Assembly (NCBI RefSeq): GCF_030160635.1
Contig: NZ_BSOS01000033.1
Location: forward strand, 1-64,000
Reading direction: 5' to 3'
Source: Acidocella aquatica
GTDB lineage: Bacteria > Pseudomonadota > Alphaproteobacteria > Acetobacterales > Acetobacteraceae
DNA: 64,000 nt
Shown one piece after another: positions 63 to 44,099 of this stretch (position 1 is its first letter; each line of letters starts with the position of its first letter). The position numbers and the translations under genes are program-made. The notes under the pieces were generated by a model. It had not been told where the DNA came from. It worked only from the letters and a program-made list of their open reading frames with translations, and searched no databases.

Positions 63-170
63 CTAGATCAATATTGGTTTAGCTTGAATCACCCGATTCA
101 AGCTAAACCAATGAAATTGATCGTAAAACATAAGGTAGAGCGTGATTGACGTGAGGCAATCACGCTCTAG
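63..170 (+). repeat. Dispersed palindromic repeat R1, copy A
   Basis: A 108-bp element made of two hairpins. The first is a perfect 18-bp inverted repeat (73-90 with 95-112, loop ACCC), flanked by GATCAAT and ATTGATC. The second is a perfect 13-bp inverted repeat (136-148 with 157-169). A second copy lies at 21119-21226 and differs at only two positions, both in the second hairpin. No protein is encoded. It abuts R2 at the shared CTCTAGAG. Function unknown; it looks like a non-autonomous dispersed intergenic repeat. Confidence 0.85.
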
Positions 171-275
171 AGTGCGATCGTTTGAGGTTCGCTCAACCGA
201 GCGAGCCGAAAGCGTGAATCGCCCTCAGAAAAATGGCCAGAGCCTGATCGCAATTAAAGCGATCATGCTCTGGCG
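169..275 (+). repeat. Dispersed repeat R2, copy A
   Basis: About 105 bp, beginning AGAGTGCGATCG and ending in a hairpin of the form AGAGCCTGATCGC...GCGATCATGCTCT. Related copies are at 21448-21552 (same strand) and, on the opposite strand, at 42527-42631 and 43175-43278. The middle carries GGTTCGCTC...GAGCGAGCC, which folds as RNA with one G-U pair. Purely intergenic. Confidence 0.85.
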
Positions 276-21118: not shown

Positions 21119-21226
21119 CTAGATCAATATTGGTTTAGCTTGAATCACCCGATTCAAGCTAAACCAATGAAATTGATCGTAAAACATAAGGTAGAACGTG
21201 TTTGACGTGAGGCAATCACGCTCTAG
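21119..21226 (+). repeat. Dispersed palindromic repeat R1, copy B
   Basis: 108 bp, nearly identical to 63-170. The 18-bp hairpin arms are unchanged. The second hairpin has two substitutions in its left arm (GAACGTGTTTG in place of GAGCGTGATTG), which weaken the stem. Confidence 0.88.
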
Positions 21227-21398: not shown

Positions 21399-21447
21399 TC
21401 CGTGAGGGAAGATATTTCGATGCCACGAATTTTAGTATCGGGATATT

Positions 21448-21552
21448 AGAGCGCGATCGTTTGAAGTTCGCTCAACCGAGCGAGCCGAAAGCGTGAAACG
21501 CCCTCAGAAAAATGGCCAGAGCCTGATCTCACCTAAAGCGATCAGGCTCTAG
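21448..21552 (+). repeat. Dispersed repeat R2, copy B
   Basis: AGAGCGCGATCG to GATCAGGCTCT, about 105 bp, same orientation as copy A at 169-275. It ends 40 bp before the start of the YXWGXW-type gene and so forms part of its leader. Confidence 0.85.
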
Positions 21553-21591
21553 CAAATGTCTCGCCTTTTCCATTTCACAGTCGAGGATGCA

Positions 21592-22944
21592 ATGACCTTT
21601 TCCAGAAGCCTAGCCCTGCGCCGCACCTTGCTTGCCACGGCCATTCTTGCGGGTCCGTTGCTCCTCGCCGCGCCGGCTCCCGCGCGCGCCCAGCTGATGA
21701 TCGGAATTTCGATCACCATCGCCCCGCCGATGCTGCCGGTCTATGTTCAGCCGCCACTGCCCGAGGAAGGCTATATATGGATCCCCGGCTACTGGGCCTA
21801 TGGCCCGGTGGGCTATTACTGGGTGCCCGGCACCTGGGTTCTTCCCCCCGAGATCGGCCTGTTGTGGACCCCGCCTTACTGGGCCTGGGAGAATGGCTAC
21901 TATATTTTCCATAGCGGCTACTGGGCCCGGCATGTCGGCTATTATGGCGGCATTAATTATGGATACGGCTACGGCGGCGAGGGCTACGACGGCGGCCGCT
22001 GGCATGACGATCATTTCGACTATAACCGCGCCGCCAACAATTTCGGGCAGATGCGCGTCCGCAATGCCTATGAGCAGCATCTGCGCAACATCAACGATAC
22101 GCGGGTGAGTTATAACGGCGGCAACGGCGGCCTCAGAATTCCCCCATCGCCGCAAGACCTTCAGGCCGCGCATGAAAACCACATGCGCCCAACCGCCGAG
22201 CAGGAGCGCCACATCACCGCCGCCGAAGCTGATCCGGCGCTTGCCTGGCGCCATAACGACGGGCGTCCACCGATCGCCGCCACCTCACGTCCCGGCGATT
22301 TTCGTGGAACAGGATGGCAAAACCCCGCGCAACCGATGCTGAACCAACCGGCCTCGCCCATGCAGCCTCGCCCGCTGAACCAACCAGCGCCACCTGCCTA
22401 CCAGCAACAACAACAGCAACAGCAGATGAACCGCCCCGCCCCACCTGCGTACCAGCAACAACACATGAACCAACCCGCGCCGCCCATGCAGCCTCGCCCG
22501 CTGAACCAACCCGCCCCACCGGCGTATCAGCAACAACACATGAACCAACCCGCGCCACCGGCGTACCAGCAGCAACAGATGAACCGTCCCGCGCCACCGG
22601 CGTACCAGCAACAACAGATGAACCGTCCCGCCCCACCGGCGTACCAGCAACAACAGATGAACCGCCCCGCCCCACCGGCGTACCAGCAGCAACAGATGAA
22701 CCGTCCCGCGCCACCGGCGTACCAGCAACAACAGATGAACCGCCCCGCGCCACCGGCGTACCAGCAACAACACATGAACCAACCCGCGCCACCGGCGTAC
22801 CAGCAACAACAGATGAACCGTCCCGCCCCACCGGCGTACCAGCAACAACAGATGAATCGCCCCGCCCCACCGCCTCCTGAGCCACAAAAGAACAATGGCG
22901 GCGGAGCACCCTCACAGCATTGGAATGACCAGAAAAAGGATTAG
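21592..22944 (+). CDS. Exported YXWGXW-type protein with Gln/Pro tandem repeats
   Basis: Protein of 450 residues. The start is the ATG of MTFSRSLAL, after GAGG; an ATG at 21556 lies against the repeat and lacks a ribosome site. The signal peptide ends about at APAPARA. Residues 35-120 are rich in Gly, Trp and Tyr, with GYWAYGPVGYYWVPGTW-like blocks, the pattern of YXWGXW repeat proteins. From about residue 265 on the chain is low-complexity, made of 11 units ending PAPPAYQQQ(Q/H). Probably periplasmic or cell-surface; function unknown. The tail is likely disordered and its unit number variable. Confidence 0.82.
   Translation: MTFSRSLALRRTLLATAILAGPLLLAAPAPARAQLMIGISITIAPPMLPVYVQPPLPEEGYIWIPGYWAYGPVGYYWVPGTWVLPPEIGLLWTPPYWAWENGYYIFHSGYWARHVGYYGGINYGYGYGGEGYDGGRWHDDHFDYNRAANNFGQMRVRNAYEQHLRNINDTRVSYNGGNGGLRIPPSPQDLQAAHENHMRPTAEQERHITAAEADPALAWRHNDGRPPIAATSRPGDFRGTGWQNPAQPMLNQPASPMQPRPLNQPAPPAYQQQQQQQQMNRPAPPAYQQQHMNQPAPPMQPRPLNQPAPPAYQQQHMNQPAPPAYQQQQMNRPAPPAYQQQQMNRPAPPAYQQQQMNRPAPPAYQQQQMNRPAPPAYQQQQMNRPAPPAYQQQHMNQPAPPAYQQQQMNRPAPPAYQQQQMNRPAPPPPEPQKNNGGGAPSQHWNDQKKD
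22387..22871 (+). repeat. 39-bp coding tandem repeat
   Basis: A 39-bp unit encoding MN(R/Q)PAPPAYQQQ(Q/H) is repeated, with nine uninterrupted copies from about 22503 and two more separated by a MQPRPLNQ insert. Units differ mainly at synonymous sites (GTC/GCC, CAG/CAA), so the array is not a very recent expansion throughout. Confidence 0.92.
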
Positions 22945-22953
22945 CCATGTGAT

Positions 22954-22993
22954 GGCTCAGCCTTGCATCGCCATCGCGGCGCAAGGCTGAGCC
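22954..22993. terminator. Hairpin between convergent genes
   Basis: A perfect 13-bp inverted repeat (22954-22966 with 22981-22993) sits just after the YXWGXW gene stop and 7 bp before the comM stop. No T-tract follows, so it is probably a shared bidirectional terminator-like element. Confidence 0.6.
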
Positions 22994-42207: not shown

Positions 42208-42528
42208 ATGACACAGGAAGAACTGAGTGCCTGGGCGCTGAAGAACGGCTGGCAGGTTTTGGCGGGGAGTTTGAGCCTGGTGAAGCCATCATCGCCGAAG
42301 GAGGCGATTGTGCGGATGATTTTCAAGGCCACGGTGGTGAGCCTGGAGGTTAAAAAACCGGCGGGGAAATGGGAGAAGATCGCCTCCGCCCCGTATGCGC
42401 AGGTTGTTTATGACGAGGAGGGCGAACGGCCTGCGGGGCTGGGGTTTGAGAAGATTCCGAGCTTTGCGATGCTGATGCGCGAGAATAAGGACCGGCTGGC
42501 GTTCTCAAGGTTTGGGCAGGCCGGTTAG
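42208..42528 (+). CDS. Hypothetical protein downstream of lexA
   Basis: Protein of 106 residues, starting 7 bp after the lexA stop, so probably in the same transcript. Soluble, mixed alpha/beta pattern, with no recognised motif. The C-terminal part (FEKIPSFAMLMRENKDRLAFSRFG) is hydrophobic and helical. Its stop codon TAG is the first bases of repeat R2 copy C, so the gene end and the repeat are fused. Confidence 0.7.
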   Translation: MTQEELSAWALKNGWQVLAGSLSLVKPSSPKEAIVRMIFKATVVSLEVKKPAGKWEKIASAPYAQVVYDEEGERPAGLGFEKIPSFAMLMRENKDRLAFSRFGQAG

Positions 42529-42631
42529 AGCCTGATCGCTTTAAGTGCGATCAGGCTCTGGCTATTTTTCTGAGGGCGATTCACGCTTTCGGCTCGCTCG
42601 GTTGAGCGAACCTCAAACGATCGCACTCTAA
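42527..42631 (-). repeat. Dispersed repeat R2, copy C, with intrinsic terminator
   Basis: Reverse orientation relative to copies A and B. Its first part is a perfect 13-bp hairpin (AGAGCCTGATCGC, loop TTTAAGT, GCGATCAGGCTCT) followed by GGCTATTTTTC, which reads as an intrinsic terminator for the lexA-hypothetical transcript. The remainder matches R2. Confidence 0.88.
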
Positions 42632-42763
42632 TTACGAGAGTTTCACGCGGGTTTCGCGCGCTGCCATATTCTTGGCCTTTTCGAGTCATAAACAGGACAG
42701 ACAGAGCGAGTAACGCTTATGTGAGAATGACGGTTTCTGTTTGGTTTGTTGAAGGGGTTTGAA

Positions 42764-43177
42764 ATGGAACGAAAAAGAGCGGGTTTGATCGGCGCGCTGG
42801 CCGGCCTCGCCACCATGGGGAGTGCAACTGCTCAGGCTGCCAGCCATGCCGGCCCGATGCCGCCCGAGCCTATGCAAATTTCCTCGTATTCGGATTTGCT
42901 CCGGCCTGTTCCAAATGCGGTTGAGCTGTTGAAGGCCCATGATGCGCAACTGCAGGAGCGCGCCCGCAATGCGAAGGTGCTGCCGGTGCAGTATTACGAG
43001 GGGGATGACCACCACCATCACCACCACCACCATCATCAGGACTATTATCCGCCGCCGGAATATTACCCGCCGCCGCCGCCGCCGGAATATTATGCGCCGC
43101 CGGAGCATCATCACCACCACCATCATCAGGGCGGTGTGACGATTGTGCTGCCGGGCCTGGGCTTGCAGATTAATTAG
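42764..43177 (+). CDS. Exported His/Pro/Tyr-rich protein
   Basis: Protein of 137 residues starting MERKRAGLIG after AAGGGG. The signal peptide ends about at ATAQA. The mature part has a run of nine His, then PPPEYYPPPPPPEYY-type segments and a second run of seven His, ending VLPGLGLQIN. Such His runs usually bind Ni, Zn or Cu; function unknown. The gene is bracketed by two same-orientation copies of R2 (42527-42631 and 43175-43278), and its stop TAG is part of the second. Confidence 0.75.
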   Translation: MERKRAGLIGALAGLATMGSATAQAASHAGPMPPEPMQISSYSDLLRPVPNAVELLKAHDAQLQERARNAKVLPVQYYEGDDHHHHHHHHHQDYYPPPEYYPPPPPPEYYAPPEHHHHHHHQGGVTIVLPGLGLQIN

Positions 43178-43278
43178 AGCCTGATCGCTTTAAGTTCGAT
43201 CATGCTCTAACCGGTTTTTCGAGGGCGATTCACGCTTTCGGCTCGCTCGGTTATGCGAACCTCAAACGATCGCGCTTA
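43175..43278 (-). repeat. Dispersed repeat R2, copy D
   Basis: Same orientation as copy C. The terminal hairpin has one mismatch (AGAGCCTGATCG with CGATCATGCTCT) and is followed by AACCGGTTTTTCG. The element contributes the stop codon of the His-rich gene on one side and the TAA stop of the convergent gene (43276-43278) on the other. Confidence 0.88.
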
Positions 43279-44007
43279 ATCCTCCGCTGCCCGGTCCCTG
43301 GCCCGGGCAGCGCCGAGGATGTGGCGGTATGTGCCGTCAAATATTGTGTTGGTGGAGGATTTCCAGCGGGTCTCCTGGGCCAGGGTTTCGCGGCTGGCGT
43401 GGATGCGCCGGCTTTGCAGCTCGCGCTCGGCGGCTTCTTCGATGCCCATTGGCACCAATTCGAAGTCAGGCTCGGCGGGTACGATGCAGATTTGCATGAA
43501 CGGTTCGCCGGGGCGGAAGATATGCACTCCGCCTTCGTGCGGGGCTTTGAAGACCATGAACGAAATCATTGGCCACCATTCCGTGCGCAGCAGGGCTGGC
43601 ACGGCGATTGGCACGTCATTGGTCTCGCTCGTATAAAATCGGGGGTGCGGCTCGGTTCGGACGGCCAGGCCGGGCGGCACCTTCAGGTCCAGCAGGAGCT
43701 GGTAGGTGTAATAATTTTCGCCAAAGGCGCGGAAGGGCGGCCATTGCACGCCGGTTTGCGGGTTTGGGCCGAAATCGCCGTCAAAGACGAATTTGCCGCC
43801 CTGCCGGGAGACGCGCAGCTCATTGTCATAGGGGTAGAAAATCTCGATGCCTGACTGCGCGCCCTCAATGAAGGGCAGGCAGTGCCAGGCCTGCTCATGT
43901 GAGCCGTCGCGCCGGGGCTCTTTTGTCCCGGCCCAGCCCGGCACTTCGATTTTTGTGCGGCGGGGGGCGAGGCGCGGTGTGAACAGCCGGTATTTGATGG
44001 TTGTCAT
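43276..44007 (-). CDS. Hypothetical protein, possibly DUF6065-like
   Basis: Protein of 243 residues from the ATG of MTTIKYRLF; 23 codons upstream are open but not protein-like. No signal or membrane segment. Conserved-looking parts are YPYDNELRVSRQGG, PHPRFYTSE, TEWWPMISFMVFKAP and a cupin-like FRPGEPFMQICIVP. The family is not recognised with certainty. Its stop codon lies in repeat R2 copy D. Confidence 0.65.
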   Translation of the reverse strand: MTTIKYRLFTPRLAPRRTKIEVPGWAGTKEPRRDGSHEQAWHCLPFIEGAQSGIEIFYPYDNELRVSRQGGKFVFDGDFGPNPQTGVQWPPFRAFGENYYTYQLLLDLKVPPGLAVRTEPHPRFYTSETNDVPIAVPALLRTEWWPMISFMVFKAPHEGGVHIFRPGEPFMQICIVPAEPDFELVPMGIEEAAERELQSRRIHASRETLAQETRWKSSTNTIFDGTYRHILGAARARDRAAED

Positions 44008-44099
44008 GGTATTTCCCATTTTTGCAGCCATTGGATATGGGAGCGAAGCGGGGATGGATTTAAGGGGGCGGAGCAAGATTGCTCAGCGCCCCGGCGGCA

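Follow-up and report, generated by a model that had tools for sequence, protein, structure and literature searches.

R2, a repeat of about 104 bp, is probably a TA-targeting and TA-duplicating, non-autonomous MITE-like element of Acidocella, the first base of which, G, preserves the stop codons that it meets. TA is duplicated at two clean insertion sites, the ends of R2 coincide with gene stops in most of the arrays, and the C-termini of the proteins are unchanged at most of the testable sites.

The window, i.e., the whole 64,000-nt stretch of DNA that was analyzed, lies on contig C33 of the draft genome of Acidocella aquatica (G000; 4.03 Mb, 137 contigs). The LexA of G000 is 93–95% identical to those of the five nearest drafts, two of which are named Acidocella. 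The window contains four R2 copies, two of which (C and D) are located at stop codons:

168–274, minus strand: R2 copy A, not at a stop
21447–21553, minus strand: R2 copy B, not at a stop
42523–42569, plus strand: terminator-like stretch of copy C, 17-bp stem including G-U pairs, then ATTTTT
42526–42528, plus strand: TAG stop of the gene 42208–42528, made of TA and the first R2 base
42526–42630, plus strand: R2 copy C, from TA to TA; the same site is occupied in the relatives G010 and G002
42527–42559, plus strand: hairpin of copy C, perfect 13-bp stem with a 7-base loop
42591–42612, plus strand: inner body hairpin of copy C, GGCTCGCTC-GGTT-GAGCGAACC, one mismatch
43175–43177, plus strand: TAG stop of the His-rich gene 42764–43177
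43175–43278, plus strand: R2 copy D, between convergent genes, with stops at both ends
43276–43278, minus strand: TAA stop of the convergent gene 43276–44076, the start of which is uncertain (the gene caller gives 44007)

The preliminary description of this DNA had placed the TAG codons at 42526–42528 and 43175–43177 and the reverse-strand TAA at 43276–43278 on the edges of R2, and had given copy C a perfect 13-bp stem followed by five T; both statements were confirmed. The arms of copy C (42527–42539 and 42547–42559) are fully complementary over 13 bp, and TTTTT (42565–42569) is found five bases beyond this stem, which reaches 17 bp via G-U and G-C pairs and then abuts A and TTTTT. The 13-bp stem of copy D has two mismatches. 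Copy D is missing in G010 and in more distant relatives.

R2 is non-coding and has imperfect inverted ends (TA-GAG...CTC-TA). In its own orientation, the layout is TA-GAGCCTGATCGC-loop-GCGATCAGGCTCT-GGCC(A/G)-TTTTT-CTGAG-body-GATCGC(A/G)CTC-TA. Read inward, the ends are TA-GAGCCTGATCG on the left (hairpin) side and TA-GAGYGCGATCG on the other, and the terminal inverted repeats, present and imperfect, are TAGAGCCTGATCG and TAGAGYGCGATCG (both read inward). The body was searched for with a 37-base pattern (up to three mismatches), which gave 95 matches across many G000 contigs and none with the reversed-pattern control. With 95 body matches and a length of ~104 bp, R2 is short, dispersed, multi-copy, and non-coding, as MITEs are. 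From these matches, 92 distinct copies with flanks were obtained and grouped into 86 arrays. The pattern matched 41 times in G002, 37 times in G010, and 45 times in G022, and the arrays of these relatives described below are from fetched loci (28, 28, and 27, respectively), some of which share ancestry with the G000 copies. When two candidates were scored per genome, R2 matches at E 1e-6 were obtained in 6 of 299 sampled genomes of the order, all six within one of 65 genera. No match was found in the plasmid collection at E 1e-3, and the Rfam search of window positions 42400–43400 gave three matches, none reaching the gathering score. Mosaic copies also exist, such as locus L016, where an R1-type hairpin (see below for R1) is joined to an R2 body. 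Head-to-tail R2 bodies with a period of 64–70 nt were observed in G022 (C20, C22, C23, C65, and C106) and G002 (C46 and C97); adjacent units often have the same 4-base loop variant, and the variant differs among loci.

The insertion footprint was read from sites that are empty in relatives. At two loci (L036 and L044), TA-R2-TA in G000 corresponds to a single TA in both G010 and G002: at L036, aagt[TA]GAG...CTC[TA]attaatt is aligned with aagt[TA]attaatt in G010, and likewise in G002, which is 4 nt shorter. These are the only two fully clean sites at which the target-site duplication of TA is present. Copy D matches the TA scheme when compared to a more distant orthologue (L179), in which the two stops overlap (AAC[TA]ATC), while in G010 a 12-nt spacer separates both stops at this site, i.e., the spacer was replaced. 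Other sites are less regular: the insert has 6 additional nt left of the hairpin at L046 and 34 additional nt at L049, a 9-nt stretch with both stops was replaced at L215, and the second flank was not alignable at many sites. Of the 86 arrays, 58 have TA at the right junction and 28 have another sequence. At one position, R2 is found at the same stop of orthologous genes in opposite orientations (L087, G000 C33:77090–77192, and L276, G002 C86), by either in-place inversion or two insertions. Locus L035 (G000 C13:102768–102874) has R2 in the loop of an apparent older terminator (AAAAAAGGGGGCTT...AAAGCCCCCTTT), and the element at L332 (G022 C113) is flanked by sequence resembling the L035 flanks.

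Genes were called with a codon-usage caller trained on the window, and in 52 of the 86 G000 arrays at least one R2 end falls exactly on the stop of such a gene (right end 37, left end 18, with 3 arrays counted for both ends). The corresponding counts for the fetched loci of relatives are 17/28 (G002), 13/28 (G010), 10/27 (G022), and 2/4 elsewhere. The G000 arrays are located between convergent (49), tandem (31), or divergent (2) genes or at contig or locus ends (4). That R2 settles exactly at gene ends, as first proposed from the window, thus holds genome-wide; the opposite case, most copies lying far from stops, was not what was found, as a gene 3' end is within about 50 nt in 70 of the 86 arrays, 52 of them exact.

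Three null expectations of increasing strictness were used for this coincidence. Among the TAs of non-coding DNA and stop codons, 130/1948 (6.7%) are in stops, compared to 52/92 copies (binomial p ~1e-36); this null is too loose because R2 copies are mostly at gene 3' ends. For a tighter null, TAs of element-free intergenic regions with matched gene arrangement were taken from the window and the stretches around copies. Stops were then expected for 27/78 TAs (35%) between convergent genes and 71/663 (11%) between tandem genes, and were observed for 36/49 (p ~3e-8) and 16/31 (p ~2e-8) arrays, respectively. When only TAs at most 50 nt from a stop were counted, the expectation rose to 27/44 (61%; p 0.053) for convergent and 71/233 (30%; p 0.011) for tandem genes. 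At 64% GC, stop codons contribute many of the TAs found at gene 3' ends, so that a TA target and survival at gene ends explain much of the coincidence, not all; a moderate excess is left over the tightest null. A simple NTAN target preference was rejected as the sole cause of this excess, as even the best context, CTAG, is in stops in only 15 of 70 cases. In eight arrays of relatives (L257, L278, L270, L307, L262, L314, L326, and L245), the right-hand gene enters R2 by 16 nt and ends at an internal TGA; this class is absent among the 86 G000 arrays.

The following course of events would produce this distribution. A transposase acting in trans would insert R2 at TA, duplicating the TA. Insertions within genes would presumably be removed by selection and divergent copies are rare, so that the surviving copies would gather at gene 3' ends, where TAA and TAG stops would make up a large fraction of the available TAs, the genome being 64% GC. 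The first base of R2 is G, so that insertion at the TA of a TAA or TAG stop would yield TAG whichever of its ends is next to the gene, and the protein would stay unaltered. The hairpin and T-tract may in addition stop transcription that enters from the left, and not from the right. An autonomous partner was looked for in the draft G000 with PF13358, PF13340, and PF01797, each of which gave one match, and the four IS630, IS5, and Y1 transposase loci tested had no R2 ends.

The exact fit to stops had originally been attributed to function: R2, as a ready-made terminator of the intrinsic type, would be kept at gene ends, its position being set by selection for termination. Such selection is unlikely to be what places R2. 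R2 often looks like an intrinsic terminator in one orientation, and to that extent the term ready-made terminator was apt: by a simple geometric rule, 33 of the 62 hairpin copies are terminator-like on the plus strand, and this applies to 28 of the 45 copies into whose hairpin the left gene reads, compared to 5 of the 16 from which it reads away (Fisher p 0.043). Element-free gene ends were terminator-like in 17/215 cases in a 220-nt scan, which exceeds the stretch scanned per element, making the comparison conservative and not identical. On the minus strand, however, 0 of the 62 copies are terminator-like, and this strand is the relevant one for 37 of the 55 genes that share a stop with R2, namely those facing the right end; only one of these 37 has any terminator-like structure at a distance of up to 220 nt from the stop. 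On the strand of the gene, 9 of 18 left-exact hairpin copies and 0 of 26 right-exact ones are terminator-like, so that the rule fails for half of the left-exact copies as well. Arrays between tandem genes more often have the non-terminating orientation (21 vs 10 in G000, p 0.07; 38 vs 18 when all genomes are pooled, p 0.01, with some copies not independent), an asymmetry that can be listed in favor of such selection. A terminator would moreover serve equally well a few bases past the stop. The TA target and the first base G are enough to give the exact stop fit, which requires no terminator function, and the precise coincidence of a repeat with a stop codon does not in itself show that a terminator was selected.

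The same limits apply in the window, where R2 had been proposed to terminate three genes. In the window, the scan for terminators found copy C (17-bp stem, ATTTTT) and did not call copy D on either strand; the plus strand of copy D folds moderately better than shuffled sequences (z −1.8). Judged by sequence, copy C is a plausible terminator of the gene 42208–42528 and copy D a weak candidate for 42764–43177, and copy D offers no terminator candidate for the gene at 43276, which is on the strand with 0 of 62. A terminator role for all three genes was thus rejected.

The flank left of the hairpin tends to pair with bases inside of the right arm: in the 57 G000 copies with a clear hairpin, 2.65 contiguous pairs were counted on average, against 1.96 (sd 0.11) when flanks were swapped, and 0 of 2000 swaps were as high. 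Part of this pairing is trivial, because the longer left end of some copies (L046) belongs to R2. At L050 (C73:93705–93810), TGATT precedes the stem and AATCA follows it, which suggests arm-to-arm copying or selection. The flank pairing in general could stem from selection, from copying between the arms, or from a left end that was longer in the ancestor. The stem extension does not depend on the direction of the left gene, an argument against its having arisen by selection for termination.

To see whether the stops predate R2, the 55 gene ends that share a stop with it were compared with G010 and G002. For 29 of them, at least one of these two genomes has an element-free orthologue, with a gene end at least 80% identical and no body or hairpin match in the 170 nt past the stop; the other 26 have none. 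The last residue is the same in the element-free orthologue at 25 of the 29; at the remaining four, the relative is one residue shorter (three gene ends) or 4–6 residues longer (L065). R2 had been supposed to supply stop codons to genes, and this is not supported: since 25 of the 29 orthologues without R2 end at the same residue, an existing stop was kept or rewritten in these cases. Of the 25 gene ends of the same length, 18 have a relative with a TAA or TAG stop, and at the other 7 the relatives have only TGA, which contains no TA. At L190, the gene end is 100% identical to that of G002, where the stop is TGA. As a control for stop switching, element-free G000 genes ending in TAA or TAG were compared with their relatives, and TGA was found in the relative in 4 of 36 pairs; the share of 7/25 is above this control, not significantly so (Fisher p 0.17). 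The copy C gene is a separate case, as its G010 and G002 orthologues carry R2 and the stop is three codons earlier in G022 and G032; a three-residue change at this gene is therefore possible. A single common insertion (L233, G000 C88:32056, vs L252, L273, and L277) gives TAG in G000 and TGA in the three relatives, as though one A had been gained or lost with the protein end preserved.

Insertion could instead be aimed at stop codons themselves, through translation termination or through cleavage or exposure of the nucleic acid there, rather than at TA. The excess over the null of TAs within 50 nt (p 0.053 and 0.011) the seven gene ends with TGA in close element-free orthologues, and the L190 gene end are what such a process would leave behind. 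The TA duplication at the clean sites and the TA at 58 right junctions nevertheless point to TA as the target, 34 of the 86 arrays are not exact, and the stop-switching control makes the TGA cases unsafe as proof of stop-directed insertion, their share not being significantly higher (p 0.17). Insertion aimed at stops is accordingly regarded as improbable. A more elaborate version, in which R2 mobility senses translation stops including TGA, the TAG ends evolved to reseal genes, and the element read from left to right is a portable, flank-matched terminator, is given similarly little credence.

It is very improbable that R2 belongs to the REPs and owes its mobility to a RAYT (Y1 tyrosine) transposase. 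The palindromic hairpin, the position near 3' ends, and the TAG given to genes recall the GTAG REPs described in PMC3733652, and one Y1_Tnp match each was obtained in G000 and G010 (2 of the 10 genomes). On the other side, no Y1_Tnp match was obtained in the copy-rich G002 or G022, and R2 differs from REPs in being ~104 bp rather than 20–40 bp long, in having variable bases before the stem and no constant GTAG tag, and in duplicating TA; by length and tag, R2 is not a member of the REPs. That R2 shortens genes, its TAG being a new truncating stop, is refuted as a general rule, as the longer relatives at L065 (4–6 residues) stand against the 25 of 29 protein ends that are unchanged.

The reading of R2 as a TA-duplicating, MITE-like element is itself not free of contrary observations: 28 of the 86 right junctions are not TA, clean sites are few, the close element-free orthologues have only TGA at 7 of 25 gene ends, and a moderate excess at stops is left. 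TA-duplicating MITEs, e.g., those of the IS630/Tc1-mariner type, are small, structured, non-coding DNA elements with inverted ends and many similar copies. R2 resembles them in size, inverted ends, TA duplication, structured non-coding sequence, and copy number. It differs from them in that its ends are only partly symmetrical, tandem bodies and mosaics occur, and no partner transposase was recognized among the loci examined. The most suitable label for R2 is that of a MITE-like element for which no partner is known.

Among previously known repeats, RUP of pneumococci likewise duplicates TA. The sections on pneumococcal repeats in PMC3049150 describe BOX, RUP, and SPRITE as short interspersed repeats enriched between convergent genes; there, SPRITE is terminator-like and near 3' ends, and BOX encodes the stop codon for 36 of 58 overlapping CDSs, with no strong evidence of truncation given in these sections. 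R2 is similar in being a short repeat between convergent genes and near 3' ends that shares gene stops, but its sequence and host are unrelated, its layout is a hairpin plus a body, and its end is exactly at a stop in 52/86 arrays. The GTAG REPs, as characterized in the relevant part of PMC3733652, are palindromic and near 3' ends, and their termini often give flanking ORFs a TAG stop, so that R2 is like them in position and in its effect on stops. Repeats that provide gene stops have thus already been published, as BOX and as GTAG REPs (PMC3049150, PMC3733652). A search limited to open-licence PMC papers found no published description of the Acidocella R2.

R2 can be taken as a quantified example of how a small transposon may persist where the genome is compact and rich in GC. 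With TA as the target and G as the first base, TAA and TAG stops would be safe landing sites, and gene ends could gather repeats with the proteins unharmed. The 29 gene ends having an element-free orthologue are natural pairs for measuring terminator effects.

Two other repeats were observed in the window. R1 is a second repeat of ~108 bp with an TAGAGCGTGATTG hairpin, located at 63–170 and 21119–21226 (copies 98% identical), and 4 of its 11 G000 copies have their right end at a stop codon. A 39-bp tandem repeat of ~15 units (22372–22956) is found in the gene 21592–22944, the product of which has a WXXGXW motif.
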